In this document: positions 1,093 to 33,175 of the stretch, piece after piece
Position numbering within the stretch: position 1 is the stretch's first letter
Layout of the letters: each line of letters begins with the position of its first letter
DNA from: Limonium bicolor
Taxonomy: Eukaryota > Streptophyta > Magnoliopsida > Caryophyllales > Plumbaginaceae
Length of the DNA stretch: 64,000 bases
Direction: 5' to 3'
Assembly: GCA_023374045.1 (NCBI GenBank)
Contig: CM041779.1
Span: 266,052,131-266,116,130 of the forward strand
Position numbers and translations under genes: made by a program
Notes under the pieces: generated by a model
What the model saw: only the letters and a program-made list of their open reading frames with translations
Told to the model about the DNA's origin: nothing
The model's database searches: none

Positions 1093-1942
1093 CGGACGTA
1101 GACATTCCAGTCGTGGTAGATTTTCCCGACTTATTTCCTGATGAGCTGCCAGGCATGCCGCCTGTGCGCGAGGTTGAGTTCGCCGTCGACTTGTTGCCAG
1201 GTACGGGCCCCATTGCTAAGGCACCCTACCGTATGGCACCGGCTGAGATGAGGGAGCTGAAGCTACAGCTGGAGGACCTCCTCGACAAGGGATTCATCCG
1301 ACCTAGTGTTTCTCCTTGGGGTGCTCCAGTGCTGTTCGTCAAGAAAAGGACGGCAGTATGCGACTCTGCATCGACTACCGCGAGCTTAATGCGGTTACAG
1401 TCAAGAACAAGTACCCATTACCACGGATAGATGATTTGTTTGATCAGCTGAGAGGAGCCAGTGTGTTCTCGAAGATAGACCTCAGATCTGGCTACCATCA
1501 GATTAGGATTGCAGAGGGTGACATTGAGAAGACAGCTTTCAGGACACGGTATGGACACTATGAGTTCACCGTTATGCCATTCGGACTGACGAATGCGCCA
1601 GCCATATTCATGGACTTGATGAACCGACTTTTTAGAGAGCATCTTGATAGTTCAGTTGTAGTCTTCATCGACGATATTCTGATCTATTCAAAAACCAAGG
1701 AAGATCATGAGTTCCATTTGAGACAGGTGTTGAATATTATGAGAGTGAACCAACTGTATGCCAAACTCTCTAAGTGTGAGTTCTGGTTAGACAGCGTGTC
1801 ATTTCTAGGACACATTATATCAGCTAGCGGCATATCTGTAGATCCTGCTAAGATTGAGGCAGTAAGAGTTGGCCAAGGCCGAAGACAGTCACAGACGTCC
1901 GTAGCTTCCTGGGTTTGGCAGGGTATTATCGAAGATTTGTGA
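1089..1942 (+). pseudogene. Ty3/gypsy reverse transcriptase, frameshifted
   Basis: This is the RT domain. It opens with [20 protein letters not shown] and [13 protein letters not shown], continues with [20 protein letters not shown] and [14 protein letters not shown], and contains [12 protein letters not shown]. The catalytic box reads [12 protein letters not shown], a normal Ty3/gypsy variant of YxDD. The frame breaks near 1345, in an A-run before [12 protein letters not shown], and again near 1870, after KIEAVR, so no single frame spans the enzyme. The C-terminal connection ([16 protein letters not shown]) is present. Confidence 0.92.
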
Positions 1943-2595
1943 AGGACTTCTCCAAGGAAGCCAAACCAATGACTAATCTAATGAAGAAGGAATCCCAGTT
2001 CTTATGGTCTGCAGAGTGTGAGCAGTCCTTTCAGACGCTGAAGGATCTCCTGACATCAGCGCCCGTTCTTACTATCCCTGAGGGCACTGATGGGTTCGAG
2101 GTATACTGTGATGCCTCTGGAACCGGTCTAGGCTGTGTGCTTATGCAGCACGGGAAGGTAGTTGCTTACGCATCCCGACAGCTGAAGAAGCATGAGGTGA
2201 ATTACCCCACACATGACCTTGAGTTAGGCGCAGTAGTCTTCGCTTTGAAGATCTGGCGACATTATTTGTATGGTGTGACAGTCACTATCTACTCTGATCA
2301 CAAGAGTCTACAGCATCTCTTCTCGCAGAAGGAGCTGAACATGCGACAGAGAAGATGGGTCGAGTTCTTGAAGGACTACGATATAGACCTGAGGTACAAA
2401 GAGGGCAAGGCGAATGTGGTAGCTGATGCCCTGAGCCGCAGAGCTCATTCATTGTTCACTTTATTAGCAAACAGCAGTATGATTGATGAGATACGAGCTG
2501 CACAGGAGAGCGATCACTATATGCAGAGTATCAGGCAGAAAATGATAGATGGTTGTTTTGAGAGGCTAAAATATGACTTGCGAACTGTGCGATGA
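1915..2595 (+). pseudogene. Ty3/gypsy RNase H region
   Basis: The frame starts in the RT-RNase H connection ([17 protein letters not shown]) and carries the RNase H core. The first Asp lies in [15 protein letters not shown], followed by [36 protein letters not shown] and the final [12 protein letters not shown] motif. This domain degrades the RNA strand during reverse transcription. It is uninterrupted until TGA at 2593-2595; the same frame resumes at 2599 as integrase, so one nonsense codon separates the two. Confidence 0.92.
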
Positions 2596-2598
2596 TGC

Positions 2599-3921
2599 AT
2601 GATTCGACTGAAGGGCCGTTTGTGTATTCCGGAGTCGTCTCCTGATCTGAAGGAGAAGATACTCCAAGAGGCTCATTGCTCGTCCTTATCCGTCCACCCT
2701 GGTTCGTCGAAGATGTATAAGGATTTGAAGGTTCATTTCTGGTGGAGCGGGATGAAGAAGGATGTAGCTGAGTATGTGGCTAGATGCTTGACCTGCCAGA
2801 AGGTTAAGTTTGAGCATAGGAGACCCGGAGGTTTAGTGCAGTCTATGCCTATTCCTTGTTGGAAGTTCGAGGACATTTCGATGGATTTCATTGTCGGTCT
2901 CCCACCGACTAAGGGAGGACTGAACACGATTTGGGTCATAGTGGACCGTCTGACGAAGGTGGCAAAGTTTATTGCGATGAGGGATACCTGGAACGTCCCG
3001 AAGTTAGCGGACTTGTTCCAGAAGGAGGTGATCCGGCACCATGGTGTGCCAAAGACTATTGTTTCTGATAGGGACCCTCGATTTTTGTCCAGATTCTGGG
3101 GACAGGTTCAGGAAGCCTTGGGTACAAAGTTGAAGCTTAGTACGGCGTTCCATCCACAGACCGACGGTCAGAGTGAGAGGACCATCCAGACACTGGAGGA
3201 CATGCTGAGAGCATGTGCCTTAGATTTTCAGGGGAGTTGGTTAGAGCGACTACATCTGATAGAGTTCGCCTACAACAACAGCTACCACTCCTCGATACAG
3301 ATGCCACCATTTCAGGCACTTTATGGTAGACCGTGTAGGACTCCTTTATGCTGGGATGAGACCAGCGAGACTACGCTCCTAGGACCAGAGTACCTAGAGC
3401 AGATTAAGGAGGATGTTCTACAGATTCGCAAGAATATGAAGGCAGCTCAGGACCGGCAGAAATCTTATGCAGACACCAGAAGGAGGGACATTGAGTTCAC
3501 TACCGATGATATGGTATTCCTTAGAGTGTCACCCATGAAGGGGATATTCCGGTTTGGACAGAAGGGCAAGTTGAGCCCAAAGTATGTTGGACCTTATGCG
3601 ATTAGGGAGCGAGTGGGCCCATTAGCCTACAGACTGGATTTACCAGCAGAGCTCGGGAGGGTGCACGACGTTTTCCACGTTTCACAGTTGAAGAGGTATG
3701 TGCCCCACCCATCGCACGTTTTGCAGCCAGAGACTTTAGAGTTGGACCCTGCTCTACGATATGAGGAAGTACCACTCCGCATTCTCGATACGAAGACGAG
3801 ACAGACTAGGAACAAGACCGTTAGCATGGTCAAGGTTCTCTGGTCGAACCATGAGGTGGAGGAGGCCACATGGGAGTTAGAGGACTCCATGAGAGCGAAG
3901 TACCCAGCACTCTTCGAGTAG
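2599..3921 (+). CDS. Ty3/gypsy integrase with chromodomain-like tail
   Basis: This 440-residue open frame is the integrase end of pol. The zinc-binding HHCC set is H26, H33, C63 and C66. The catalytic DDE triad is D96 (MDFIVGLP), D157 (VSDRDPRF) and E193 (GQSERTIQTLEDML), with the expected 35-residue spacing between the last two. A GPY/F-like module follows (LSPKYVGPYAIRERVGPLAY). The C-terminus, VKVLWSNHEVEEATWELEDS, resembles the chromodomain remnant of Tekay/Del chromoviruses, which directs insertion into heterochromatin. It is the best-preserved part of the element but has no start of its own, because it depends on the broken upstream frame. Confidence 0.93.
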   Translation: MIRLKGRLCIPESSPDLKEKILQEAHCSSLSVHPGSSKMYKDLKVHFWWSGMKKDVAEYVARCLTCQKVKFEHRRPGGLVQSMPIPCWKFEDISMDFIVGLPPTKGGLNTIWVIVDRLTKVAKFIAMRDTWNVPKLADLFQKEVIRHHGVPKTIVSDRDPRFLSRFWGQVQEALGTKLKLSTAFHPQTDGQSERTIQTLEDMLRACALDFQGSWLERLHLIEFAYNNSYHSSIQMPPFQALYGRPCRTPLCWDETSETTLLGPEYLEQIKEDVLQIRKNMKAAQDRQKSYADTRRRDIEFTTDDMVFLRVSPMKGIFRFGQKGKLSPKYVGPYAIRERVGPLAYRLDLPAELGRVHDVFHVSQLKRYVPHPSHVLQPETLELDPALRYEEVPLRILDTKTRQTRNKTVSMVKVLWSNHEVEEATWELEDSMRAKYPALFE

Positions 3922-16587: not shown

Positions 16588-17819
16588 TTTTTTTTTTTTG
16601 AAGAGCGAACGAGTATATATTAAGAAAGTAGTTTAAGTACAACTTCCGGAATGGTATCCGGTGTCCATGAACCCGACGTTTGTGTCGTACGGGCATGGTT
16701 AGCTAGGTTATGCGCTAACAGATTATGATCCCTTGGAATATAAAACCAAGATACATCACAGACTGAGTCTAGACTAGCCAAAATACGATCCAAGATGGCG
16801 AGTGTGGGTGACAGTAGCGATGTATTAATACCACCTTGTAGATACTGAATAAGAGCCTTACTGTCCGACAAGAGACGTAGCGATCGGACCCCCGAATCCC
16901 GAGCAGCCTGCAAGGAAGCTTCAATTGCTTTGGCTTCCGCCTCCGCAACCGTCATATCTGCTCGAAATCCATGACCTCCTGCCAAAAGCAAGCTCGAATT
17001 GACACGGCCCACCCATGCCGTCCCCACTCGCTTATAAACATCCAAACTAGCGTCTGTGTAAAACTCTGGCCATAGAGGGTTGACTTGGCGATGTTGTGCA
17101 AGAGCAACAGAGGATGCTGGATCCAGCCCGCTTGCCTGATGCAAGAAACTTGTAGCTTGGCTCCAACCCTGGTCGAAACTGTTGACTTGTCCATGTGAAA
17201 CCTGGCACCTTGCATACCATAACTTCCAAAAGAAAGAGACATAACGGGTGATTTGCTTGACTGACTCTACCCAAATAAACTGAAAGAACCAGTGCTTCAT
17301 TTCCGCATCAGTTGAAATATGTGCAGGCATGCAAAACCCAAACTGCTGCCAAAGAGGGCGTACCACTGGGCATGCATGAAACACATGTAGCATTGTTTCA
17401 TCGGAGTTACATAAACTACAAGCGGTCGGTATGTCTTGGCGGATCCTGTCTTTGATAGCTGTTTTGCATGCGATTGTTGACGTTATGAACTTCCATGCAA
17501 ACAAACGAACTCGAGGCGGAACAGGGAGCGCCCAAACTTTCCTATAAACTGTGGCTTTAACAACCGACGTCGACGAGGATGGTGAAGCCGCACGCTTAAG
17601 GGCCAAAGCCGCATAGTATGCCGAAGAAACTGTATAAGCTCCTGATTTAGTAAGGCCCCAATACCAGAAATCCGATGAGGGCATCTGAGCTGAGGGCGAG
17701 GCAATTGGTGTGGCAACAATATGCTGGATGTCAGAAGGGTCACACCACAAGGCCAGAAGATCACGATTCCAACCATTATCTGATGTTATAAGAGTAGCTA
17801 CAGAGGCGTACTTGTGCAC
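16588..17819 (-). mobile_element. 5'-truncated LINE (L1-type) insertion with poly-A tail
   Basis: The insert reads on the minus strand and ends in a 12-base A tail (T12 at 16588-16599 on plus). It is flanked by perfect 15-bp direct repeats AAGATAGCCCATATC at 16573-16587 and 17820-17834. Only the 3' 1.23 kb of a LINE was inserted, typical of incomplete target-primed reverse transcription. The perfect repeats and unbroken frame point to a recent insertion. Confidence 0.95.
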
Positions 17820-17831
17820 AAGATAGCCCAT
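16620..17831 (-). CDS. LINE ORF2 C-terminal part: zinc-binding RT tail and RNase H
   Basis: This 403-residue open frame is the C-terminal third of a plant LINE ORF2. About residues 55-160 form the RT-associated zinc-binding domain (DFWYWGLTKSGAYTVSSAY, WALPVPPRVRLFAWKF, CSLCNSDETMLHVFHAC). About residues 255-385 form a plant-type RNase H (PEFYTDASLD, AEAEAKAIEASLQAARDSG, LLSDSKALIQYL, PRDHNLLAHNLANHA), with D, E and D catalytic positions visible and the H variant common in plant LINEs near the end. The endonuclease and the RT core are missing through 5' truncation. The ATG lies in the target-site duplication, so the frame starts in host DNA and translation is doubtful. Confidence 0.92.
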   Translation of the reverse strand: MGYLVHKYASVATLITSDNGWNRDLLALWCDPSDIQHIVATPIASPSAQMPSSDFWYWGLTKSGAYTVSSAYYAALALKRAASPSSSTSVVKATVYRKVWALPVPPRVRLFAWKFITSTIACKTAIKDRIRQDIPTACSLCNSDETMLHVFHACPVVRPLWQQFGFCMPAHISTDAEMKHWFFQFIWVESVKQITRYVSFFWKLWYARCQVSHGQVNSFDQGWSQATSFLHQASGLDPASSVALAQHRQVNPLWPEFYTDASLDVYKRVGTAWVGRVNSSLLLAGGHGFRADMTVAEAEAKAIEASLQAARDSGVRSLRLLSDSKALIQYLQGGINTSLLSPTLAILDRILASLDSVCDVSWFYIPRDHNLLAHNLANHARTTQTSGSWTPDTIPEVVLKLLS

Positions 17832-17834
17832 ATC
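17820..17834. repeat. Target-site duplication of the LINE, right copy
   Basis: This is identical to 16573-16587. On the minus strand it supplies the ATG of the LINE open frame (17831-17829). Confidence 0.95.
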
Positions 17835-17974
17835 GGTTTCTAACGTTTTCTTATATTGTTTGTGTGTACTTTTCAGTTATTCACTGTTTAAAAAACACTC
17901 TTTGTTACGCTATATGGATTAGAAACTGATGGTGGAGTAATAATATAAGGTGAAGTCATGACAGAGCAAGAATT
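17835..17974. other. Spacer between the LINE and the long-TIR element
   Basis: This is AT-rich flanking DNA with no feature seen. Confidence 0.5.
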
Positions 17975-17983: not shown

Positions 17984-19290
17984 GGGAAATTTAATAACAT
18001 ATCTTGGGTTTTATCCATTTTTTACAAAATATCTTCAAATTTTACAAATTATTACTACATCTCTCAAATTTATTTTACTCTATAATATACCCATGAGGTT
18101 TATTTTACTCACAATATACCCCTGTGAGTGTAACAAATATTTGTTCAGAACATACCTGCACAGTGTACCAATTACATTTTCACGATATACCCATTGAAGT
18201 GTGATGAATTTTTTTTTTCACGATATACCTCTTCAAGCACAAAAGTAATACCACTCTATCTCATAACCGGACCCATCTCATGAAACCTGATTTTACTCGG
18301 TGTACTCATTAAAATTAACGTAAATGCCAGTAAGATTGCAACCAGCACACCACTAGTTACATTATTCATTTCACATTATATATTTTGTAGCTTGGACAAA
18401 CTTGATTGATGTACGTGAAAAAAAAAGACTACAAATTGAAGATCCTTTATGTAGCATGGTGATAGAAGGAGAGTGACAATTATCGCTAAAAAAATACTTT
18501 GGACTTAGATAAAGACTTCCTAGAGCTAGACAGAGGTTCAAGTGACTGGCTTACAAATAAGAAAAGACAACCAGCTTGTGCAATATCCAGATATGTAATA
18601 ATCTATTTTCCCTTATCTAAAATATTCCTCAAGAGACCGTCAAAGATGTAACCAAGGTCTGCAAATAGAACCAACAATATAACAATGACCCAACCCACCT
18701 ATTGCACGGGTAAAGACATCGAAAGAAGTCATATGACCACATATGCATTAACTTCTAATAAAAAGATCATAATAAGATTAGTAAGTGCTATTTAAAAGTA
18801 TATAAAAACTTAAACACCAATCTAAGAGACCAATTTACTAACGATCTAGAACACGAAGTATGGATCTTCTTATTTTCTCTACAAAATCAGACATGACGGA
18901 TAATACTTCACCAAAACTAATAGCTAATTTGACACTGGTATGAAATTATATCATTGACATTGTTTGTGAGACATTACACATGTGTGCTATTTTCAATATT
19001 TGAAGGCAAAACTAGCCGCTACATTGTGCACGAGTATATTATAAAGCCGATACATTGTGTAGGGGTATACTGTGTGAAAAAAAATTCATTACATTTCGCA
19101 TGGATATATAATGAAAATTTAGTCATTACACTGTGCAGGGGTATATCGTAAAAAAGAAATTTGTTACACTCACAAGGGGTATATTATAAAGTAAGATAAA
19201 CTCGAGGGGTATACTATAGTAATTTATGAGGTTTAAGGATATTTTGTAAGAAAAACGGTTAAATCTCAAGGGTATTTTATGAAATTTTCC
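17984..19290. mobile_element. Non-autonomous MULE-like DNA transposon with TIRs of about 280 bp
   Basis: The left end (GGGAAATTTAATAACATATC) and the reverse complement of the right end (GGAAAATTTCATAAAATACC) align and stay similar for about 280 bp. A 9-bp direct repeat TAAAATTTA flanks the element at 17975-17983 and 19291-19299, the length typical of Mutator-like elements. Inside each TIR a unit of about 45 bp built on GATATACCCC...CAGTGTAAT repeats several times. The core (about 18300-18990) has no coding signal. The element would depend on a transposase supplied elsewhere. Confidence 0.82.
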
Positions 19291-19299
19291 TAAAATTTA
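19291..19299. repeat. 9-bp TSD of the long-TIR element, right
   Basis: TAAAATTTA matches 17975-17983. Confidence 0.75.
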
Positions 19300-19314
19300 T
19301 GAGGGTTAAAGCTA

Positions 19315-19323
19315 TTTTGTAAA
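19315..19323. repeat. 9-bp TSD of the MULE, left
   Basis: TTTTGTAAA is identical to 26968-26976. Confidence 0.88.
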
Positions 19324-19425
19324 CTGGGTTGCTATTCGCAGTACAAAATTACTAATCACCGCAGTACAAAATTTGTTTAATTCATATTGACGTTGTACAC
19401 ATGTAATGATGTCGTGTTGTAACTG
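19324..19425 (+). repeat. MULE left terminal inverted repeat
   Basis: It matches the reverse complement of 26875-26967 nearly base for base over the first 90 bp. It contains two direct copies of GCAGTACAAA at 19338-19347 and 19361-19370. Confidence 0.93.
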
Positions 19426-19674
19426 TTGTTTTTTTAAAAAATAATTTCTTGAGCGTAAACAGTAAAAAACACTCTAATTGTTACAAAACATTATAAACCC
19501 GTATAAAAGACGTTAAACCCTTTTTAATCGCATTTAAACGTTATAATTGTGACTCCACATAAGTTAATGACATTTTATGTTGTTTTTGACTAAATTACAA
19601 ACATTGTTACACTTTCAGAACGTTGTATTGAAATCGCAGTCGAAAACGTCAATTTTGGATAAAAAACGCTCGTA

Positions 19675-19684
19675 CTATATATAG
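19675..19684 (+). promoter_or_regulatory. TATA-like box near the MULE left end
   Basis: CTATATATAG is followed by a pyrimidine-rich leader (CTCACTTACTCACTCTCC). The layout matches that of the transposase promoter at 23337 (CTATATAAGG, then CACTCACTCTCC). It would drive transcription rightwards into the GC-rich block and captured DNA. Confidence 0.5.
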
Positions 19685-19739
19685 CCTAACCTTCCTTCGA
19701 TTATTCATTCTCACTTACTCACTCTCCTCTCTCATCTCC

Positions 19740-20310
19740 TTCTTCCTTAAGAATCTCTTCTGACTGCCGGGGGAGCCGCCGCTGGAGTCCGCCCCCCGCC
19801 GCCGCCAACCACCGCCGGACCACCGCGCCCGAAAAAAATTTTTCCGATGAGTTTTCTTTTTTTGAATTTTGTTTTTTTTTGCAAACTTATAGATTTGGGG
19901 TGTCCTGAGTTGAATTTGGTGTTAGTTTTTTGAAATTCAACATCATTTGAGCTAGATCTAGCATGAAAAATTCGAAAATATTCAAAAAAAAGAGAGGCCT
20001 GGGCGAGCAGCGCCGCCGCTCTACTCGGAGAGAATCGAGGACCGCTGCTGCTCGATCTGGAGTCAGGCGAGGATTGGGGCTGCTCGCCTCTGTAGCACGC
20101 GAGGATCCAGCCTGCTCGACCCCTGTGTGTGCGCGCCCGACGACGGAGGCGAGGAGCTGCTGTGCTCGAGTCCACTCGAAGCGAGGAGCACTGGTGCTCG
20201 CCGTTGCTGGAATCGAGGAGCAGCAGTACTCGCCGATAGAGAAGAAGAGGAGCGGCGCTGCTCGCCCCGGTTGCAGGAGAGCACCTGCGCTGCTCGAGCC
20301 AGTTTTTTTT
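19740..20310. other. GC-rich block with repeated CTGCTCG / CGAGGAGC words
   Basis: This is a sharp GC-rich island in AT-rich DNA. Inverted words such as GCTGCTCG and CGAGGAGC recur many times, so all frames stay open on both strands (for example 19963-20322 plus, 19747-20175 minus). The products are Arg/Ala/Ser-rich and match nothing I know. I treat it as low-complexity, possibly captured first-exon DNA, and call no gene. Confidence 0.45.
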
Positions 20311-20311
20311 T

Positions 20312-20520
20312 CTGAATTTTAATATTTTGAATGATTTTTAAATGTTTTAATTTGTTTATTTTTTAATTCTAATATTGTGAATGATTTTTAAATGTTTTAA
20401 TTTGTTTTTTTTGAATTCTAATAAATATTGTGAATGATTTATAAATGTTTGAATTTTTTTTTGAATTGTAATAATCTGAATGATATGATTATAAATGTTT
20501 GAATTTTTATGTTATGAATG
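20312..20520. repeat. AT-rich tandem repeat, about 4 imperfect copies of roughly 58 bp
   Basis: The unit GAATTCTAATATTGTGAATG followed by ATTTTTAAATGTTTTAATTTG recurs with drift. It separates the GC-rich block from the open frame at 20551 and may be intronic, since a TATGCAG acceptor-like site lies at about 20543-20549. Confidence 0.65.
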
Positions 20521-20550
20521 AGGAATATAACTGTGTGATATTCGTATGCA

Positions 20551-20844
20551 GTGATGGATCGACTGAAAAAAGCAGTGAAAAATGTATACACGAAGAGGAA
20601 GAATAAAGACCGGGGTACGGAGCAGCCTATGACGGCCTCGTACTGTCGTGGTGTACGTGCTCCTGGTGAAGGGCCGAGTAATCCTGCCCCCCACATGGAA
20701 GCAGCACGTCATTCATCGTTCCATCCGGGTCAATCTTTCAACGACCCGGCGTTTCAAGTACCTGCACCACCAATGGTAGCGGAGGATGACTCGGCGGTGT
20801 TCGATATACCGAGGGGACGAGAAATGAAATATATCAAAATGTAG
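20551..20844 (+). CDS. Unrecognised short open frame in the MULE left half
   Basis: This 97-codon frame begins MDRLKKAVKNVYTKRKNKDR, then has a Pro-rich stretch with FNDPAFQVPAPPMVAEDDSA and ends in the first copy of a local repeat (20817-20864). I do not recognise the product. It has a basic N-terminus and no membrane segment. A splice-acceptor-like TATGCAG lies just upstream, so it may be an exon of the transcript expected from the TATA box at 19675. It could be a remnant of a MULE accessory protein or of a captured gene. Confidence 0.35.
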   Translation: MMDRLKKAVKNVYTKRKNKDRGTEQPMTASYCRGVRAPGEGPSNPAPHMEAARHSSFHPGQSFNDPAFQVPAPPMVAEDDSAVFDIPRGREMKYIKM

Positions 20845-20864
20845 AAATTCCTAAGAAAGAAAAG
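20817..20864 (+). repeat. Local repeat R, copy 1 (48 bp)
   Basis: ACGAGAAATGAAATATATCA and the following 28 bases match copies at 21159 and 21714. This copy runs directly into ARGONAUTE piece 1. Confidence 0.9.
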
Positions 20865-21113
20865 ATGTGTGACCAGCTTCAATCTAAACTTCCCGGAATG
20901 CCTTTGTTTCTATTGTGCTTGCTGCCTGAGAGAAAGAATTGTGATATTTATGGGCCTTGGCAGAAGAAGAATTTGGTAGAATTTGGTGTTGTCACACAAT
21001 GCATGGCTCCTTTCAAAGTTAACGATCAGTATTTGACAAATGTGCTTCTTAAGATCAATGCCAATCTGGGTGGTCTAAATTCTTTGTTGGTCGTTGAGTG
21101 TTCTCAGGAATGA
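20865..21113 (+). pseudogene. Captured ARGONAUTE4-type fragment, piece 1 (MID/PIWI junction)
   Basis: The 82-residue frame reads as a block of a plant AGO4/6/9-clade Argonaute: LQSKLPGMPLFLLCLLPERK, CDIYGPWQKKNLVEFGVVTQ, then VNDQYLTNVLLKINANLGGL and NSLLVVE. These proteins bind 24-nt siRNAs in RNA-directed DNA methylation. Only this segment is present, without N, PAZ or catalytic parts. It lies inside the MULE between two copies of repeat R, so it is captured DNA and not a gene. The frame is open, which suggests recent capture or weak decay. Confidence 0.87.
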
Positions 21114-21158
21114 TAGTGTTGAAATGAAATATCTAACATGTACCAAAGATTGTATATG

Positions 21159-21240
21159 TCACGAGAAATGAAATATATCAAAATGTAGAAATTCCTAAGA
21201 AAGAAAAGTCCCTGAATTCAAATCCTATGAATCACATAAT
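21159..21240 (+). repeat. Local repeat R, copy 2 (about 82 bp)
   Basis: This matches 21714-21796 over its full length and 20817-20864 over the first part. It runs directly into ARGONAUTE piece 2. Confidence 0.9.
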
Positions 21241-21243
21241 TGA

Positions 21244-21384
21244 GAAAGGAAGCCTGAGCAGATTATTATATTTAGGGATGGTGTGGGTGAATCTCAGTTA
21301 AACCATGTTCTAAACATCAAGCTTGACCAAAATATTGAGGCTTGCAAATTTCTGGATGAAAGCTGGAACCCCAAGTTTATGGTG
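21244..21384 (+). pseudogene. Captured ARGONAUTE4-type fragment, piece 2 (PIWI)
   Basis: In frame 21244 the translation gives ERKPEQIIIFRDGVGESQLN, then VLNIKLDQNIEACKFLDESW and NPKF, a PIWI-domain block of the same AGO4-type clade. In an intact gene it lies well downstream of piece 1. The exons in between, with the first catalytic Asp, are missing here, and R copy 2 stands in their place. Homology stops after NPKF, probably at an exon end, and a hAT MITE follows 26 bp later. Confidence 0.85.
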
Positions 21385-21401
21385 GATGCCCTGTTAATGT
21401 C

Positions 21402-21409
21402 TCTCCCTG
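21402..21409. repeat. 8-bp TSD of the hAT MITE, left
   Basis: TCTCCCTG is identical to 21682-21689. Confidence 0.85.
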
Positions 21410-21681
21410 CAGGGACGGAGCCAGGATGTAAATTATATGGGGTCACTAATTTTTCGAAGAAAAAAAATTATAACATATATGATCATAGTTGGATTTGAAC
21501 CCAGGATAACTTACCTAATATTTTTATCCCTTACCACTATACCATTAACAACTCTCTAATATATGGGGTCACTATACTATATACATATAAAATTTAATTA
21601 TTATACATATAGGAATCTCTACATTCTTGAAAAAACGTGGGGTCACGTGACCCCACGTGATCCCCCTTACATCCGCCCCTG
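21410..21681. mobile_element. hAT-type MITE, 272 bp
   Basis: The ends are CAGGGACGGA and, inverted, CAGGGGCGGA, flanked by an 8-bp duplication TCTCCCTG at 21402-21409 and 21682-21689. Short CAGGG ends with an 8-bp TSD are typical of hAT elements. A CACGTGACCCCACGTG-like palindrome lies near the right end. There is no coding capacity. Confidence 0.85.
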
Positions 21682-21689
21682 TCTCCCTG
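21682..21689. repeat. 8-bp TSD of the hAT MITE, right
   Basis: TCTCCCTG is identical to 21402-21409. Confidence 0.85.
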
Positions 21690-21713
21690 TACTGTTATTG
21701 ATAATACGGTGTG

Positions 21714-21796
21714 TCACGAGAAATGAAATATATCAAAATGTAGAAATTCCTAAGAAAGATAAGTCCCCGAATTCAAATCTGATGAATCACATAATT
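21714..21796 (+). repeat. Local repeat R, copy 3 (about 83 bp)
   Basis: This is near identical to 21159-21240. All three copies can be read in one frame as RNEIYQNVEIPKK, so R looks coding-derived. Confidence 0.88.
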
Positions 21797-21916
21797 AAAA
21801 GTGAATAACTATAACAACATGTTTATTCCACATCCAAACATCTACCAAAGATTATAAATCCCGAAAAGTATGACAACACGAGAACTAACAAGATCAATTA
21901 CGCAATAACCAATAAC

Positions 21917-22348
21917 CTAATTATTTCCTAACCTTTGTTTCTCTATTCCATGTGCTATTACATTACGTCGCATCTCATAAATTGGTTCTTGGTGTTGAAA
22001 ATCAACATCATCGGGCTCAATAGGATCATAAATAACAAGTAGGAATTGAGCGAGAATCATTATCTCCATGTAATTCTCCATCATCCGGCGAACTGATGTA
22101 TCATTTCGTACATGAATAAAAGTCCACTCGTAGTCGCCCTCCAGCCCCAAATACACCATGGTTGTTATGTTTATTCTGCCGAGGAGGGACTGTAATGCTC
22201 AAATTACTCATCGTTGTAGATCACGGAGATTACTAGGATATGGCATAGTAAATTCTACGCGTCTGTGCCCCATTCTTCTATCAAATTGTGCTCCATGCCG
22301 ACCAAAAGTAGCTACATAATTAACGTGCAAACAGAAAGGAAACTCCAT
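21917..22348 (-). pseudogene. Second MULE gene, N-terminal part, two in-frame TGA codons
   Basis: On the minus strand an ATG at 22348 opens MEFPFCLHVNYVATFGRHGA and runs to FTMPYPSNLRDLQR. Two TGA codons follow (22210-22208 and 22201-22199), after which the same frame continues with ALQSLLGRINITTMVYLGLE, EGDYEWTFIHVRNDTSVRR and IYDPIEPDDVD until 21917. Keeping frame across both stops argues for point decay of a real gene. The pattern resembles the N-terminal, PB1-like region seen in front of some plant MULE transposases. The rest of the gene is missing. It is divergent to the transposase gene, with the 95-bp repeat array between the two. The family call is tentative. Confidence 0.6.
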
Positions 22349-22635
22349 TTGATTGTGAGAGCGAAATGGGAATTAAGGTATGAAGAGTTCAAGCAAGATG
22401 TAATTAGACAGATTTTGAGAGCACAGGGTAAGGAATGAGTATGTTGGGACACTAATACCCTCTTTTATAATATTTGAGTAATGGTCACTGACATGTCCAA
22501 TGGCTAGTTCAACGGCTACTAAAAGAAAACAGGGTTATATCATGAATTTTCCCTAAAAAGAATTCACCCCCACTATTCAAATTAGATTCTAGGCGAAGGA
22601 AGCGTACCAAACACACCATGGAGAAGTTGATGATC

Positions 22636-23299
22636 CAGTACAAAGTGAATTCAAAGTTACCATAGGTAATTACTTTTGTCAGGAAAGGTACACGTACCAG
22701 GTCACTGTGCACGTACCAGGTTACCGTTTGCAGTACAAAGTGAATTCAAAGTTACCATAGGTAATTACTTTTGTCAGGAAAGGTACCCCTACCAGGTCAC
22801 TGTGCACGTACCAAGTTACCGTTTGCAGTACAAAGTGAATTCGAAGTTACCATAGATAATTACTTTTGTCAGGAAAGGTACATGTACCAGGTTATTGTGC
22901 ACGTACCAGGTTACCGTTTGCAGTACAAAGTGAATTCAAAGTTACCATAGGTAATTACTTTTGTCAGGAAAGGTACACGTACCAGGTCACTGTGCATGTA
23001 CCACATTACCATTTGTAGTACAAAGTGAATACAAAGTTACCATAGGTAATTACTTTTGTCAGGAAAGGTACACGTACCAGGTCACTGTGCACGTACTAGG
23101 TTACCGTTTGCAGTACAAAGTGAATTCAAAGTTACCATAGGTAATTACTTTTGTCAGGAAAGGTACACGTACCAGGTCACTGTGCAAGTACCAGGTTACG
23201 TTTGCAGTACAAAGTGAATTCAAAGTTACTATAGGTAATTACTTTTGTCAGAAAAGGTACACGTACCATGTCACTGTGCACGTACCAAGTTACCGTTTG
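22636..23299. repeat. Tandem array, 7 copies of a 95-bp unit
   Basis: Units begin at 22636, 22731, 22826, 22921, 23016, 23111 and 23205, with a partial eighth at 23300. Six periods are 95 bp and one is 94 bp. Each unit holds GCAGTACAAA (five exact, two with one mismatch), GTTACC...GGTAAT dyads and GGTACACGTACC-type palindromes. The array lies directly upstream of the transposase TATA box and between two divergent MULE genes. Confidence 0.95.
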
Positions 23300-23336
23300 C
23301 AGTACTTGTAACCTTGTGGCTAGTTCATGAGAACCT

Positions 23337-23346
23337 CTATATAAGG
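23337..23346 (+). promoter_or_regulatory. TATA box of the MULE transposase gene
   Basis: CTATATAAGG lies 37 bp after the tandem array and is followed by a pyrimidine-rich leader (CACACACTCACTCTCC) and the first candidate start codons. Confidence 0.65.
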
Positions 23347-23482
23347 GATGCCTCCTCCATTTCATCTTCACACACTCACTCTCCATATTCTCAAAGCTCT
23401 CTATCTCCTCGCTCTCTTCCAAAAATAATTTCATAAAACTATGCAAGCTCTCTAAACATAAGTCAATCTTCAGATTCCGATC

Positions 23483-26399
23483 ATGAGTATGTTCCAGTAT
23501 CAAGCCCAGTAAGTATTTAGTTTATTGTCTTTGTAAATCATATTCACACTAATATTTCATATTTCAATATTCATCTAACATTCTCTCGACCTTTATTGCA
23601 GGAAAGTGACTCAACCACTGATTCAGATTGGGATGAATTTGATGAAGGCGTTCCAGATCATAATGCAGAGATGGATGACTACATGCAGCAGATGTATATT
23701 CAACCTCCGGTGGTGGATACAGGTTACTTATTTCAAATAAACCAGGTATTTAGGAGTAAAGAAGAAGCGAAAGCTTGGGTAGATAGTGTTGGCCATCCCA
23801 ACCATATCTACACCATAATTCAAAGTTCTCGGTCGGGCCAAGATTTCCACATAACATGCGAGAGGTATTGGAAACCACGAAGGACATCACGACCTGGTGT
23901 CATCAACCGGCGCAGATCATCTGGTTCAAAGAAATGTGGTTGTCCTTTTGAATTAAGGGGTATTACACAAGCTACGGGTGTTTCTTGTAAGTGGGTCACG
24001 GATGGCATAACCATGATCTCGCTGAGTGGGCAGAGGGTCATTTTGTAGGAAAACGCCTGACTGAGGCGGAGGAGATTATGATCGATCAGAGAAGCAGAGT
24101 CGGTGTGCCACCCTGTGCAATTTATTCAGAGCTCACAACAATCAACCCAGAAACGTCAGCAACAAGGAAAGACATATACAACCAGATACAAAAAACAAAA
24201 CTAGTAAAGAGAGATGGTCGATCTATGGTGCAGACTCCGTTGAGTGAGCTAGACAAAAACAACTACTACTACGATTACACTACAGAACCAAGTAAGTCAA
24301 CTCAGTATGTCTCAAATAACTTCAATCATTTAGGGTTCATATTAATTTGATAGATAACATGATTATATTTCACAATTTAGGGGATCAAACACGACTTGGG
24401 TCCATCTTCTTTGCACACCCTACCTCTAGATTACTGCTCCATGCTTTCCCGTATGTCATAGGCATTGATGCTACCTATAAAACAAACATAGCAAAAATGC
24501 CTTTGGTTCAGTTCATCGGGATGACGAGTATAGGCAAAAACTTCAGCATTGCCTTCGCCTTTCTTGTATCAGAATCAACAGACATGTATGTGTGGGCACT
24601 TCAACAATTAAGGGACCTCCTCGGGCGGAATACAACCTCTACATTTATCACCGACAGATGTCTGGCCCTGATGAATGCCTTAGAAGAGGTATTTCCTGAA
24701 TCTCATCATCTCATTACTATGTTGGTGGCACATAAGTAGGAACGTTCAGGGGAAAGCCGAGACTTATATGGGTGATAGAGGATGGGCGGCGGCTGCAGTC
24801 CGAATGTGAACTTCGGTTGTCTACTCGAGCACAGAGCAGGACTACAACGAGAGGTACGAAAATTTAAGAATACATACCGAAGCTACCTACGTTTCATTAC
24901 ATATGTTGCATCAGTCTGGGAGAAATACAAGGAAAAATTATGGAGGCTTGGGTCAAGAATGTGTTGCACTTCGGCAACACAACGACAAATAGGTAAAATT
25001 GTTAATCTTGTAATGTTTAAGATAATACAGTCATTGTTATAGATCTATAAAACTTACTTAAACATTTGATAGGGTGGAGAGCGCACATTCTTCTCTAAAG
25101 GCGAGATTAAGGAGTGCTAGACACACTTTGGATGTAATCTTTCCAAAGATTAACAATCATGTGAATACAAGCATCCGGGAGTTAAAAAAGAATTTTGAGG
25201 CAGCCAGGACAAAACACAGAAGAGAGCACATGAGGGTTCCAATTGCTGACCTGATCGGGAAGGTTAGTACCCTTTGCTTAGATGAGCTAGTCAAGGAGCT
25301 TGGAAGGGCGAATTATGTGCAAATGGACAGCTCACTATGTGGATGTGACAAGGTAACCTCTCATGGATTACCTTGCACTTGTAAATTAAACTACATGCTG
25401 GATAGTGGTATACTATGCTCGAAGAGGGATATACATCGTTTCTGGTATACCCTAAGCTGGGAGGAAAATGAATCAACAATTGATATGCTATCCTACAAGG
25501 AGGTAGAACAGAATAGATGGCGAGATATAGCTTCTGAGGTAGCACAGTTAGATGATCCTACTCTGATGGCGAAATGTTACAGTCAAATCCAAAACTTCCT
25601 TCACCCAGATATGGTGTGCCAATTAGGAGAGCCAATGGAACAGTTTGGGATTGGCAGACCTACCGGGACCTCAAGACCAAACCGACGGGAACCTTCGTCT
25701 TGGGAGCGTAACCGACCAAGGGCAGGCCAGTCAGAAGGAGCGCCATCAAATAGAAGATCACGTGATAGAGGATCATCAAATCTGAGTCGATTCCTGCCCC
25801 TAGACAACTTCCCATACTACCAAAATTTCAACCCCAACCTATATCAATATATGACTGGGTATATTGATGTTCGTGGAGATGGGAATTGTGGTTTCAGGGT
25901 CATTGCTGACTACCTATATTCAAACGAAGAGAGGTGGAAAGATGTCCGTAGAGCATTGTACAATCACATGAAGAATAAAGCACCTGTGAATCAACTATAC
26001 AAGGCCATTTTTAACGAAGGACCGTACAACGGCATGTTAAGAGCATTTCATTGGAATTTAGGAGGGCCAGCACCTCCAGAGAAATGGATGACCACGGAAA
26101 TGGGGTTGGCGATCGCGACAAAGTACACTTCGATAGTAGTTTTCTACTCTACTGTCTTTGGGGGTATGACAAGTGCCACATATCTTCCGCTCGATAATTA
26201 TACCGATCGTGATAGCCCAAGAGGAGAGATCCACATAGGAATTTGCCCTCAGAGTCATTTCGTAAGGTTCGGCATGGTTGATGACTCCCACCCCCCTGTC
26301 TATCCGCAGTGGTTCTTTTATAGAGATTCAAACACTTTCGGACCTTGGATTCATCAAATACAATCTAGGTTAGATAGTTGGATCAATGTTGTACCTTAG
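23483..26399 (+). pseudogene. MULE transposase (FAR1-like, MULE, SWIM, OTU), frameshifted
   Basis: This is the transposase gene of the MULE. A first short exon may end at 23508 and an acceptor lies at 23600-23601, but the exon 1 phase does not fit, so the start is uncertain (an in-frame Met lies near 23671). Domains in order: a FAR1-like zinc/DNA-binding segment (FRSKEEAKAWVDSVG, KKCGCPFELRG); a MULE DDE domain (FPYVIGIDATYKTN, FSIAFAFLVSESTDMYVWAL, FITDRCLALMNALEEVFP); a SWIM-like zinc finger (CGCDKVTSHGLPCTC); a C-terminal OTU domain. Introns fit at 24292-24380 and 24993-25072, with phases that agree. Frameshifts near 24000, near 24710 and between about 24775 and 24940 disable the DDE part. 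The last exon is open. Its layout matches an autonomous MULE that has decayed. Confidence 0.9.
25073..26399 (+). CDS. Last exon of the MULE transposase with OTU-type cysteine protease domain
   Basis: This intact 441-codon frame starts at a splice acceptor (GATAG|GGTGGAG), with VESAHSSLKARLRSARHTLD. The SWIM-like finger begins at C89 and C91. A polar linker with GRPTGTSRPNRREPSSWERN follows. The OTU domain spans about residues 262-415, with D269 and C272 in VRGDGNCGFRVIADYLY and H395 in GICPQSHFVRFGM as the expected Cys-protease residues. OTU enzymes cleave ubiquitin chains. Fused to a transposase, it might stabilise the protein or act on chromatin ubiquitin, but that is inference. Exons upstream are frameshifted. 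Confidence 0.85.
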
Positions 26400-26541
26400 T
26401 TTTCTTTAACTTAGTTGTTGTAACTTAGTCTTTCTTTAACTTAGTTGTTGTAACTTAGTTTTTCTTTAACTTAGTTGTTGTAACTTAGTTTTTCTATAAA
26501 TTAGTTGTTGTAACCTAGTTTTTCTTTAACTTAGTTGTTGT
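26395..26541. repeat. 30-bp tandem repeat after the transposase stop
   Basis: The unit TTAGTTGTTGTAACTTAGTT plus TTTCTTTAAC repeats about 4.5 times with few changes, starting at the stop codon. It lies in the expected 3' UTR. Confidence 0.88.
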
Positions 26542-26648
26542 TTTAATCATATTGACATAAATTTGGTCATTCAATTGTCTATTATTTCAAAAAAAAGTGT
26601 CTCCCCGTAACATTCAAACTTATTCAACTAAGTTTGGTGAAAAAAAAA

Positions 26649-26692
26649 TTTGTACTGCAAATAGTAAAGTATTTTGCTATTCGCAGTACAAA
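26649..26692. repeat. Subterminal inverted pair of the TIR motif
   Basis: TTTGTACTGC (26649-26658) and GCAGTACAAA (26683-26692) form a palindrome about 275 bp from the right end. The second half carries the TIR word GCTATTCGCAGTACAAA. Confidence 0.85.
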
Positions 26693-26874
26693 TTAATTTT
26701 AAGTCAAATTAATAATATAAACACATAAAAATGTAATCCAACACTTTTTTTTACAAAAAAAGGTTCATGTATTGATTCCAACAAAAAAGTAACTAGTAAA
26801 ATTCGCTACCAATCAACTATAAACTACTTCGGTAAATTTTCTTTCGGATATCATTTTTGGAAAAAAAAACACAG

Positions 26875-26967
26875 CGACACATCATTACATGTGTACAACG
26901 TCAATATGAATTAAAAAAATTTTGTACTGCGGTGATTAGTAATTTTGTACTGCGAATAGCAACCCCC
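26875..26967 (-). repeat. MULE right terminal inverted repeat
   Basis: This is the inverted partner of 19324-19425. The motif appears as TTTGTACTGC at 26921-26930 and 26944-26953. Confidence 0.93.
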
Positions 26968-26976
26968 TTTTGTAAA
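26968..26976. repeat. 9-bp TSD of the MULE, right
   Basis: TTTTGTAAA is identical to 19315-19323. Confidence 0.88.
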
Positions 26977-27801
26977 ATATATGTATATATTCAATATTAA
27001 TGTTAAGTATTAAAAGCATACAATAAATGATAAATAGTAAATAAAAATACTTAACGATATAATTTATTGTACTATTAGAATTTTTTTATGAGCAAATGGT
27101 AAAATGTTTATATATGTGTACGCTAAAGAATTGAAAAACTAAACTATAGTTAACTTGATTTGAAACTTAGAATTCAAATTATGGTTATAAAATATATAGC
27201 ACTAGATAACATAAATTAATGTTTCCAGTGTAGTTCATTATATTTACAACACTGAACAAATTAAAATAAATTAATGCTAATTAAAAATAATCACTATAAT
27301 TGTTTTAGATAAGTAATAATTTAAACTAAATTTAAAACAAAATAAATAATATTAAAAAAAAGTGATGTCATCAGGATAATTGGGTGTTTGGCCCCCCAAA
27401 ACCTCAATATAGCTCCGCCACTGATGCTATGTATTCAAATTCTAAAAATTCATAATACAAATCAATAAAACTGAAAATGAAATATCCCAATTTAATTAAG
27501 GTTAGTATTAGTGATTTTAACCTTATGTGCTTTAAAAGAATTTTAAAGGTTATTTAGTGAGGCAAAGCTCAATAGTCATGAATTAATTAGTTTAGAGCAT
27601 GTTCTAGTCACCTCTGGTTCTAAGCCAATACTTGCATTCCGGAGTAATAATTCCGGACCAGAGCCAAGCTTCCGAAACAATTATAGTATGGGGTAGGGGA
27701 CTCTTCTGGAAGCCGTTTGCCTATATTTCACATTTTTGTCACAATGGTCATTTTGGTAATTTTGAGTGGTTTGAAATACTTTGACCTTAAAAGATGGTTT
27801 C
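26977..27801. other. AT-rich intergenic DNA between the MULE and the Athila-like LTR
   Basis: No gene is seen. At about 27400-27424 a GC-richer stretch ends GCTCCGCCACTG, a form common at ends of plant hAT-like elements, but no matching left end was found, so no element is called. Confidence 0.5.
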
Positions 27802-29060
27802 TGATAAGTGGTGAAATGATGTAATTGTAAGGTCTTTATTTACCTTTGTTTCGTGCAACTATTGACCTATTTCACCACTTTATAGAGCGTTTCGTTAATA
27901 TAGGTGAACTCATACAGTTTTGATTAAAATATAGGTAAAAGATCACTTGAGCAATGATATTTGGGAGACTCTCAAGACTTTGTGGCCAAGCTTTAATGCA
28001 CCGAGGAGTGTGTCAAAGACAAGGGGTCAAACAGGATGATTTTGATGTAGAAGAAGCGCTTCTGGTGTGGACCGCCCCAAGAGGACTGCCCCACAGGGGC
28101 AGTCAGGTTGATTACAACGTCTGAATTGTCTCGGGTGTGGACCGCCCCAGGAGAACCGCCCCTGTGGGGCGGTCTGGACGGGATTTTTGCCCAGTAAGTC
28201 ATTTTAAAGACGGGAAAAAGAGGGGTTTTAGACACATTCTTTCATTCTACACTTCCACACACACAAGAGGAGAGAGAAAACGACAAAGGGGGAAAAGAAG
28301 AGGAGAAAGAAGAGGAAGAAGAGAAGAAGGAAGAGCCCACCTTCTCCAAAGCTTCCAAGCTTCAACAATGGCTTCTTCTTACTCTTTTCTAGTTTTTCTT
28401 TTCTCCATGCTTGAGTAAAACTCTATTGTGCTTTGGGATGGGTTTTTGACCCCAAACCCTAGAATGTGCTTATGAATCTTGATTATGCCTTAATGTAGTT
28501 ATTTCTCTCTTAATTATCATTCAATGTTCTTGAATTGATCCCTTGAGTGCATTTGTGGTGAACCCTCTCTACCATTTGGTTTTGAGTTAGGGTTTTTGAC
28601 AAAATTGAGAGAGAACCCTTGATTTATGCTCCTAGGATTAGTGAGTATACTTTAGGGCTTTATTCTAGAACTTGCTTAATGCTACTTAGTGAGTTTAGCC
28701 CTAATTGGTTTAGAGGGTTATTATCATTGTTATAAAAGATAACTATGGCATAAAAAGAGTTGCTAGCATATCTAGGTAGTTTGGATGATTGCCAAATTCC
28801 CAAAGTACTTCTCCATCCAATCCATTAAGCTATCACCTTTAGTTTATTTGTTGTTCTTGCAATTACTCAACCAACACAATCGAGCTTGCCGCCGGCTAAA
28901 CCCCAATTTACTATTTTTATTTCAATTACTAAATACCGAGACTAGGAAGTTAGGACCAACTTCCTTGTGGATACGACACTTGTTGTACTACACTGATTAG
29001 GTGCACTTGCCTATTCCTTGCATTTATTTATATACCTTGTTATATAGCTCTTGCACAACA
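27802..29060 (+). repeat. 5' LTR of the Athila-like element
   Basis: The right end is firm: ...GCACAACA at 29060, 6 bp before the primer-binding site. The left end at TGATAAGTG (27802) is inferred from likeness to the start of the element X LTR (TGATAAGTGC at 33176). It contains a pair of GC-rich hairpins 71 bp apart (28084-28173). Confidence 0.6.
28084..28173. repeat. Two GC-rich hairpins 71 bp apart in the Athila-like LTR
   Basis: Stem 1 is GACTGCCCC / GGGGCAGTC with loop ACA (28084-28104). Stem 2 is ACCGCCCC / GGGGCGGT with loop TGT (28155-28173). They belong to a tandem unit starting GGACCGCCCCA at 28069 and 28139. Confidence 0.9.
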
Positions 29061-31111: not shown

Positions 31112-33175
31112 ATGCCCATCTATACAAAGTTCATGAAAGACATTCTCACAAACAAGAGATCTTTGCTAGAAGCTGAAACTGTGCATCTCACTGAAGAAAT
31201 TTCAGCGATCCTACTAAGGCACCCTCCTCCGAAGCTTGGAGACCCTGGTTTGCCTATCATCCCTTGTTCTATTGGTGATTTTAATTGCAGTAGTGGTCTA
31301 TGTGATTTAGGAGCTGGTATGAATCTCATGCCACCTTCAATTTTTAATAAACTTGGGATTGGTGAGTGCACACCTACTACCGTACAATTACAACTTGTTG
31401 ATAGGTCTCTAGTGTTTCCGAAAGGAAAAGTTGAGGATTTGGTAGTGACTGTGGGAACCTTTGTTTTCCTCGCTGATTTCATAGTGATCGATATGGAAGA
31501 AGATGTCAAGGTCCCTTTGATTTTAGGCCGTCCATTTTTAAGAACTGCTAGGACCTTGATAGATGTGGAAAAAGGGAAGATTATTTTGCGTCTTCATGAT
31601 GAAAAGCTTGAGTTTGACATGTCTAAGATAGTGAAAAGACCCGTGCATGCGGAAGCTATTTTTGCAATAGATGTTGTCGACTCCATTTTGCAAAATAATC
31701 CACCCCCTCAGTCTAATTATGATGCTTTGAGTTTTACTTTGCTTGAGTCTGATGATGAACAGGAGATGGATCCGGAGGTGAATGAAATGGTAGCCGCTTT
31801 GGATAGAGCTCCAAGATACTTCATAATGTACTACCCACCACTGGAACCACTGGAGAGAAGCGAGCAAAGGATACCTCCCTCGGTCGAGAAGCCCCCCACC
31901 ATGGAGATGAAACTTCTACCTTCTCATTTAAAATATGTTTATCTGACTGAACCTTGTGATCTACCTGTCATTATCTCCTCCTCCCTCACAGGAGCACAAG
32001 AGGATGGTTTATTGAAGGTACTTCAAAACCACAAGGGGGCAATTGGTCGGTCAATCTCTGATATAAAGGGTATCAATCCCAACTTCTGTACTCACCGCAT
32101 ATTCATGGAGGACAGCTTCAAACCCTTGATTCAACCACAAAGAAGGCTAAATCCGAACATGAAAGAGGTAGTCAAAAAGGAAGTGCTGAAACTGCTTGAC
32201 TCCGACATTATCTACTTCATCTCCGATAGCAAGTGGGTGAGTCCGGTGCAAGTGGTGCCCAAGAAAGGAGGAACTACGGTAGTCCCCAATGATAAGGGTG
32301 AGATGGTCCCTCAAAGAACTACAATGGGGTGGAGAGTGTGCATAGACTACAGAAAACTGAATGCCGCCACTCGAAAGGATCATTTCCCCTTACCATTCAT
32401 TGATCAGATGCTTGAGAGGCTAGCGGGTCAAGACTACTACTGTTTTCTTGATGGTTATTCGGGGTACTTCCAAATCCCCATAGCACCTGAAGATCAAGAA
32501 AAGACCACCTTCACCTGCCCATATGGAACATTTTCTTACCGAAGGATACTGTTTGGCCTATGCAATGCCCCTGCCACATTCCAAAGATGCATGATGGCCA
32601 TATTCTCTGATTTCTTGGAGAAAAGCATCGAAGTGTTCATGGATGATTTCTCGGTGTTCGAGCTCACATTTGAAACTTGTTTGGACAACTTAGATGCCAT
32701 ACTAACCCGGTGTGAGGAGACAAATTTGGTGTTCAACTGAGAGAAGTACCACTTCATGGTTAGAGAGGGGATTGTCCTTGGACACAATATCTCCTCCAAA
32801 GGCATAGAAGTTGATCAAGCCAAAGTAGAAGTCATTGAGAAGCTCCCACCACCGACCTCAGTCAAGGACATTAGAAGCTTCCTCGGGCATGCCGGATTCT
32901 ACAGGATGTTCATAAAGGATTTCTCGAAAATTTCTAAGCCACTTTGTGACCTCTTAATCAAGGATGCAAATTTTGACTTCACCAAAGAGTGTCTTGAATC
33001 CTTCAACACTATAAAGGAATGCCTCATCTCAGCCCCCATTGTAGTGTCACCGAATTGGAGTTCCATTCGAAATTACGTGTGATGCCAGTGACTACGCAGT
33101 TGGGGCGGCTTTGTGTCAGAAAAGAGACAAGGTTTTGAGAACCATCAACTATACGAGCAAGACCTTGAATGATGC
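31112..33175 (+). pseudogene. Athila-like protease, RT and partial RNase H
   Basis: The frame 31112-32740 (542 residues) contains the Athila-type protease (LCDLGAGMNLMPPSIFNKLG, VPLILGRPFLRTARTLIDV) and the RT (WVSPVQVVPKKGG, WRVCIDYRKLNAATRKDHFP, FGLCNAPATFQRCMM, and the catalytic box VFMDDFSVF). TGA at 32738 replaces the Trp codon expected before EKYHFMV, and the same phase continues through VLGHNISSKGIEVDQAKVE and RSFLGHAGFYRMFIKDFSK. After a shift near 33060 the first RNase H block (CDASDYAVGAALCQ) follows, then the sequence is cut at 33175 by element X. Confidence 0.9.

Follow-up and report, generated by a model that had tools for sequence, protein, structure and literature searches.

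ARGONAUTE4-type scraps, most likely derived from RNA, within a Mutator-like element of Limonium bicolor

The element and its surroundings

The window analysed here, a stretch of 64,000 nucleotides of Limonium bicolor DNA (contig CM041779.1), contains a Mutator-like element (MULE) that encloses pieces of an ARGONAUTE (AGO) gene. The element's terminal inverted repeats (TIRs) agree at 86 of 89 positions, and an exact target-site duplication (TSD) of 9 bp, TTTTGTAAA, lies on both sides. Target duplications of MULEs are usually 8-11 bp long, and the TIR- and TSD-bounded MULE proposed in the initial annotation is thus real. Outside the AGO pieces, the following features were recognized:

19315-19323, no strand assigned: left TSD TTTTGTAAA, an exact copy of the right TSD
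19324-26967, no strand assigned: MULE, the outermost unit, 7,644 bp, with a TIR pair and an exact 9-bp TSD
19324-19412, plus strand: left TIR, identical to the right TIR at 86/89 positions
19676-19684, plus strand: TATA-like match upstream of the AGO cargo; a pattern match of putative function
19741-20310: GC-rich stretch (55% GC) between the TATA-like matches and the 96-codon ORF
20554-20844, plus strand: 96-codon ORF, running into repeat A copy 1
21920-22198, minus strand: 93-codon ORF facing the AGO pieces, with no family above cut-off
22636-23305, no strand assigned: 95-bp tandem repeat, 7.1 copies, upstream of the transposase relic
23521-26399, plus strand: relic of a MULE transposase gene with a C-terminal OTU-like stretch; two frame changes and one stop as read
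26387-26541: 30-bp tandem repeat, right of the transposase relic
26649-26692, no strand assigned: two extra TIR-like copies inside the right end, their outer ends facing each other
26879-26967, minus strand: right TIR, identical to the left TIR at 86/89 positions
26968-26976, no strand assigned: right TSD TTTTGTAAA, an exact copy of the left TSD

From left to right, therefore, the element consists of the TIR, the TATA-like matches, the GC-rich stretch, the 96-codon ORF, the AGO mosaic (20817-21796) and the minus-strand ORF, followed by the 95-bp repeats, the transposase relic, the 30-bp repeat, the inner TIR-like copies and the right TIR. The TATA-like box previously noted near the left TIR is present as a pattern match at 19676, and two more such matches lie at 19492 and 19502; its function is putative only. 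The 96-codon ORF (20554-20841) gave no Pfam match at E<=1, and the minus-strand ORF gave nothing above the Pfam cut-off and one match below it (E 0.2). The 95-bp tandem repeat holds the TIR core CAGTACAAA, and the TIR core GCAGTACAAA occurs in it five times without mismatch. The arrangement of the inner TIR-like copies would fit the fusion of an older MULE end with a second short element from the same family. Exact scans of a viral contig collection for the TIR core and for repeat A (described below) returned no match, as expected for a plant element.

The MULE domain (PF10551) was found within 24320-24736 (Pfam, E 9.6e-24), which identifies the relic as MULE transposase. Its reading frames, followed in three frames for each presumed exon and judged by eye with the help of characteristic motifs, change near 23990 and near 24715 and meet a TGA at 24807-24809. 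The earlier statement that the element also carries transposase thus holds for a relic and fails for a working gene, the frame being broken at least three times as read; because of this, the MULE is probably no longer autonomous. At the C-terminus of the relic there is an OTU-protease-like stretch (25791-26396), including GDGNCGF, which resembles OTU domains of viral and cellular proteins only weakly (best E 0.0026). The top matches are named RNA-dependent RNA polymerase, and we take these entries to be nairovirus OTU domains. No Pfam OTU match was returned for 25791-26396 at E<=0.01, nor for 25062-26396 at E<=1, and a literature search for a MULE with both an OTU domain and transposase found none.

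Several other elements are found in the window. Directly to the left of the MULE is an element of about 1.2 kb (18018-19253) with imperfect inverted arms of 27-40 nt in nested order. A LINE-like relic with zf-RVT and RVT_3 domains lies on the minus strand at 16623-17876 and another, with RVT_1, on the plus strand at 31112-32737; each is a possible source of reverse transcriptase. Further away, a Ty3-type retrotransposon stretch (1858-3918) contains RNase H, integrase and a weak chromo domain. Together with the MULE and the AGO4-type sequence, these LINE-like and Ty3-type stretches fit plant nuclear DNA.

The AGO4-type pieces

The cargo consists of three blocks of AGO sequence interspersed with copies of a short repeat, which we call repeat A, and interrupted by a miniature element (MITE):

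20817-20864, plus strand: repeat A copy 1, 48 nt, abutting AGO block 1; 100% identical to copy 2 over 48 nt
20865-21110, plus strand: AGO4-type block 1, MID/PIWI, 82 codons open (Pfam Piwi PF02171, E 2.7e-12)
21135-21157, plus strand: spacer piece resembling 21837-21859 (87% over 23 nt, E 0.016, weak alone)
21161-21241, plus strand: repeat A copy 2, between AGO blocks 1 and 2
21247-21384, plus strand: AGO4-type block 2, PIWI, 46 codons, containing FRDG (Pfam Piwi, E 3.4e-11)
21390-21409, plus strand: left part of AGO4-type block 3, ending in the target duplication of the MITE
21410-21681, no strand assigned: nested MITE, 272 bp, with CAGGG ends and an exact 8-bp TSD TCTCCCTG, splitting block 3
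21682-21717, plus strand: right part of AGO4-type block 3, SPCTVIDNTVCH
21716-21796, plus strand: repeat A copy 3, at the end of AGO block 3

Blocks 1 and 2 correspond to positions 2-69 and 147-191 of the Piwi profile, so that the order and orientation of the pieces match those of an AGO mRNA. The best match of block 1 among solved structures is 'Protein argonaute 1' (3vnb_A, E 6.5e-12), presumably a plant protein. In the search for its relatives, 49 of 54 candidates were kept at E<=0.001 (best 2.5e-29), and the sole Argonaute-named protein among the 49 is 'protein argonaute 4-like [Senna tora]'. For block 2, the search used a profile made from the block itself, protein P0050 and two further AGO4-type segments. 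This retained 262 of 488 candidates, of which 120 were listed, and among the matches listed most of the named relatives are argonaute 4, 4A or 4B, while a few are argonaute 8 or 16. Block 3, which the MITE (hAT-like, we assume) divides, amounts to 16 codons once joined and reads PVNVSPCTVIDNTVCH; its alignment with PDNVPPGTVIDNKVCH of P0051, a Rhododendron protein named 'argonaute 4B-like', has a score of 62, whereas none of 2000 shuffles went beyond 36. The names of the relatives and their identity thus support assignment of the pieces to the AGO4/6/9 clade, as judged from the sequence. The initial description, of sense-oriented MID/PIWI pieces of AGO4 type within a single MULE, was correct, except that it counted two such pieces and overlooked the third scrap of 16 codons. 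A complete PAZ-MID-PIWI protein with catalytic residues is not encoded, as the three pieces together hold about 144 codons. The stretches that would carry the first and the last catalytic residue are presumably absent.

The cargo has decayed, as is evident from stops, missing stretches and two replaced lysines. The frame of block 1 ends in stops, the AGO sequence that should link blocks 1 and 2 is absent, and about 15 codons have been lost between blocks 2 and 3. The two lysine positions were scored on BLAST alignments, without a residue pattern for picking the sequences. Four residues after the tyrosine of IYG, K is found in 23 of 25 aligned hits and Q in the window; the exceptions, P0014 (Y) and P0026 (Q), both fall in sequence that is no longer exon-like, and a 26th hit, P0042, has a gap there. 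At the lysine of KINAK, all 23 aligned hits have K and the window has N. Neighbours of the pocket type, namely Y, Q (in TQC) and K (in LKIN), are kept in the window; we take these positions, and those of the two replaced lysines, to belong to the pocket of Argonaute for the 5'-phosphate of the guide.

Divergence was compared exon by exon. The best amino acid identity of the window to any relative, in sets picked by pattern, is 80, 84, 76 and 93% for exons A to D, and the relatives' own nearest-neighbour identities have medians of 93, 92, 90 and 87%; the relatives at or below the window's identity number 4/32, 5/19, 3/59 and 48/48, respectively. In exons A to C, some relatives are thus no less diverged than the window. 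Exon D (ACKFLDESWNPKFMV) therefore shows no excess divergence, its best identity being 93% and all 48 others lying at or below it. Overall, the AGO scraps look like decayed passengers rather than a working anti-silencing weapon.

Repeat A marks the junctions of the cargo. All three copies begin at the same base of the repeat (20817, 21161 and 21716), the 85-nt alignment of copies 2 and 3 (21157-21241 and 21712-21796) shows 95% identity, and a scan of the whole window allowing 3 mismatches found these three copies and none further. The spacer piece 21135-21157 precedes copy 2, and its likeness (21837-21859) lies downstream of copy 3. The presence of such a repeat (48-85 nt) at the junctions suggests template-switching repair; repeated switching fits better than a single insertion with one duplication, because the latter would give two copies and not three. 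A Helitron was also considered as the carrier of the AGO pieces and rejected, as no clear 5'-TC...CTRR-3' unit could be seen by eye around 20817-21796.

Exon junctions and the origin of the cargo

The window reads straight across all five AGO exon junctions contained in the pieces, introns being judged here against genes of other organisms. Relatives were mostly ORFs called on unannotated assemblies, and such ORFs stop or read through at introns. Annotated proteins were left out of the count because their models are already spliced, as was P0052, whose source is unclear; junctions 1 and 2 were thus judged on 44 of the 49 block 1 hits, and junctions 3-5 on 54 of the 120 listed block 2 hits. The search for relatives kept only proteins of 0.55-1.75 times the query length, limits which favour short ORFs and so under-count intronless genes. 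Because of this bias, and because some assemblies may be transcripts, the following fractions are no census:

Junction 1, CDIYG/PWK: 39 of 41 informative ORFs interrupted or with unspliced sequence (unannotated assemblies); nine read-through ORFs hold both exons, with 25-34 extra residues between them
Junction 2, INAK/LGG: 22 of 23 informative ORFs interrupted or with unspliced sequence (unannotated assemblies); four ORFs hold both exons, with 32-36 extra residues
Junction 3, IIFR/DG: 18 contiguous, 10 interrupted and 1 odd among 29 informative ORFs, among the matches listed
Junction 4, IIE/ACKF: at most 39 of 46 informative ORFs interrupted among the matches listed, an upper bound (P0073 and P0101 are contiguous when read by eye); four ORFs hold both exons, with 30-42 extra residues, among the matches listed
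Junction 5, PPG/TVID: 31 of 33 informative ORFs interrupted among the matches listed, P0059 being contiguous by eye; five ORFs hold both exons, with 25-30 extra residues, among the matches listed

Junction 3 was dropped as evidence on introns, since a site at which 18 of 29 ORFs are contiguous is uninformative. At the other junctions, the read-through ORFs show that introns exist in several genes. Both block-1 junctions are informative in 20 ORFs, none of which is contiguous at both. Single losses do occur. At junction 1 no interruption is found in P0001 and P0006, nor, outside the count, in the annotated proteins P0004, P0013 and P0023; at junction 2 the same is true of P0049. Another of the five annotated hits left out, P0014, is gapless over both block-1 junctions, and its residues after junction 1 are unlike the exon. 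Two relatives are contiguous at junctions 3 to 5, as is the window: P0063, on a contig of 51.9 Mb, may be an independent AGO4 retrocopy, and P0059, on a contig of 1.9 kb, may be a transcript or else, perhaps, another such retrocopy.

The pieces thus lack introns where AGO4-type genes elsewhere have them, which points to an mRNA-derived source, and the cargo is most likely an RNA-derived retrocopy or cDNA patch and not the product of ordinary DNA-level Pack-MULE capture. Fragments captured at the DNA level are expected to keep their genomic structure, introns included. The earlier proposal of Pack-MULE capture is therefore borne out in so far as AGO pieces lie inside a MULE; the usual DNA-level route is made less likely by the absence of introns at the four informative junctions. 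That the MULE nevertheless copied an AGO4-type gene, or a paralogue already intron-free, seems to us quite improbable. It would agree with the usual model for captured fragments, gap filling at the DNA level (PMC8277862 and PMC4858842, both in excerpt), and with the single intron losses listed above, and an intron-poor AGO4 paralogue in the host plant is a possible source. However, the parent would need to be intron-free at all four informative junctions, and 0/20 ORFs lack both block-1 introns.

Within an RNA origin, a small but appreciable chance attaches to the sub-case in which LINE activity put an AGO4 retrocopy directly into the MULE, independently of any activity of the MULE itself. The cargo is intronless in comparison with the genes of other organisms, as a processed retrocopy should be, and the two LINE-like reverse transcriptase relics (16623-17876 and 31112-32737) are near. 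However, neither poly(A) nor a single flanking duplication was seen by eye at the AGO scraps; the 3' end of the cargo stops within PIWI, at NTVCH; and repeat A breaks its middle and is present three times instead of as one flanking pair. The lack of visible poly(A) and the three copies of repeat A make direct LINE insertion the less favoured route.

On the whole, we consider it likely that the AGO4-type cargo came from mRNA and now sits, as a decayed passenger, in a MULE which has, as read, lost its autonomy. A spliced AGO4-type RNA would have been reverse transcribed by some host retroelement, and pieces of the copy would have reached the left half of the MULE, whether out of a retrocopy at another site or as cDNA that patched a break. 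To judge from the anatomy, this placement may have proceeded by repair with repeated template switching, which would have left repeat A at the junctions. The decay of the pieces and the landing of a MITE in the third are both visible in the window. If the left end were transcribed, the AGO pieces would be carried in sense orientation in a non-coding transcript, for which a regulatory role is not the default expectation; the present state of the cargo is probably passive.

Possible roles and relation to known systems

AGO4 carries siRNAs in RNA-directed DNA methylation, or RdDM (PMC11986588 and PMC7385966, in excerpt), and one rival reading is that the AGO4 pieces help the MULE to escape silencing, through siRNAs or a decoy that would lower host AGO4 or as a gene-like shield from RdDM. 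The capture of gene fragments appears, in the excerpted review, to be an effective strategy of transposable elements for evading RdDM (PMC10004981), and VANDAL elements are described as carrying anti-silencing proteins (PMC10398659, excerpt); the pieces here lie in sense behind TATA-like matches, and a minus-strand ORF faces them. However, a search of 18000-28000 for inverted AGO copies that could form a hairpin (seed 12, minimum 20) found ten inverted pairs, none touching 20865-21717, and the cargo is short, diverged and interrupted and the transposase broken. Capture of an AGO gene also needs no special reason: in rice, fragments of over 1000 genes are found in over 3000 Pack-MULEs (PMC10004981, excerpt), so an AGO gene can be hit by chance. 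We therefore regard a counter-silencing role as very unlikely, and would say the same of its more specific form, in which convergent or RDR-dependent transcription of reverse-transcribed AGO4 mRNA within the MULE gives siRNAs that lower host AGO4.

Still more remote is the idea that the 82-residue MID fragment is translated and acts as a dominant-negative peptide, which strikes us as extremely improbable. An ATG at 20865 does open the 82-codon frame. However, the frame covers only part of the MID/PIWI region, the two conserved lysines have become Q and N, and an upstream ATG (20554) precedes block 1 in the presumed transcript.

Among known systems, Pack-MULEs are the closest in form. The AGO4-type blocks are host-gene fragments of the kind by which Pack-MULEs are recognized (PMC4858842, excerpt), and here too MULE ends and a 9-bp TSD surround them in sense order. 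However, Pack-MULEs are defined in the same excerpt as non-autonomous MULEs without transposase fragments (PMC4858842), whereas the present element has a transposase relic besides its intronless cargo; it is therefore not a strict Pack-MULE. A second parallel is the ARF6 retrogene inside MER20, likewise an RNA-derived gene copy within a TIR element, which its authors say, in the available excerpt, could also reflect recurrent retroposition (PMC8277862). That case concerns an almost whole retrogene in an animal element, whereas three AGO4 scraps in a plant MULE are found here.

The right end of the element recalls the multi-TIR MULEs of tomato, of which 61 are reported, 48 with tandem TIRs at both ends and 13 with a solo extra TIR (PMC3310237, excerpt). 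As in those, extra TIR copies lie near one end (26649-26692); they differ in that two degenerate inner copies face each other here.

VANDAL21 and the other elements with VANC proteins are, we assume, Mutator-type, and the 95-bp repeat with its TIR core (22636-23305) recalls, by description, the tandem-repeat targets of VANC. VANDAL elements counter silencing through VANC proteins that bind tandem-repeat regions (PMC10398659, excerpt). They resemble our element in their link to RdDM and in having tandem repeats in a non-coding part. However, VANC is an expressed anti-silencing protein and the AGO scraps encode nothing intact; nor did either of the two extra ORFs of the MULE (96 and 93 codons) match a Pfam family above cut-off.

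A search of titles and abstract openings, with most subscription journals outside its scope, found no report of an AGO gene captured by a MULE, and we see the present cargo as probably an unusual, passive form of a known phenomenon. If the evasion of RdDM by gene fragments holds, as the excerpted review has it (PMC10004981), any such cargo would have a generic use. As the cargo is part of an effector that silences such elements, it is of interest in relation to small RNAs, although its decay argues against a present role. Furthermore, models of gene capture by MULEs operate at the DNA level, whereas the lack of introns in this cargo, together with the repeat at its junctions, suggests that copies derived from RNA can also enter plant DNA transposons, perhaps by way of template-switching repair.
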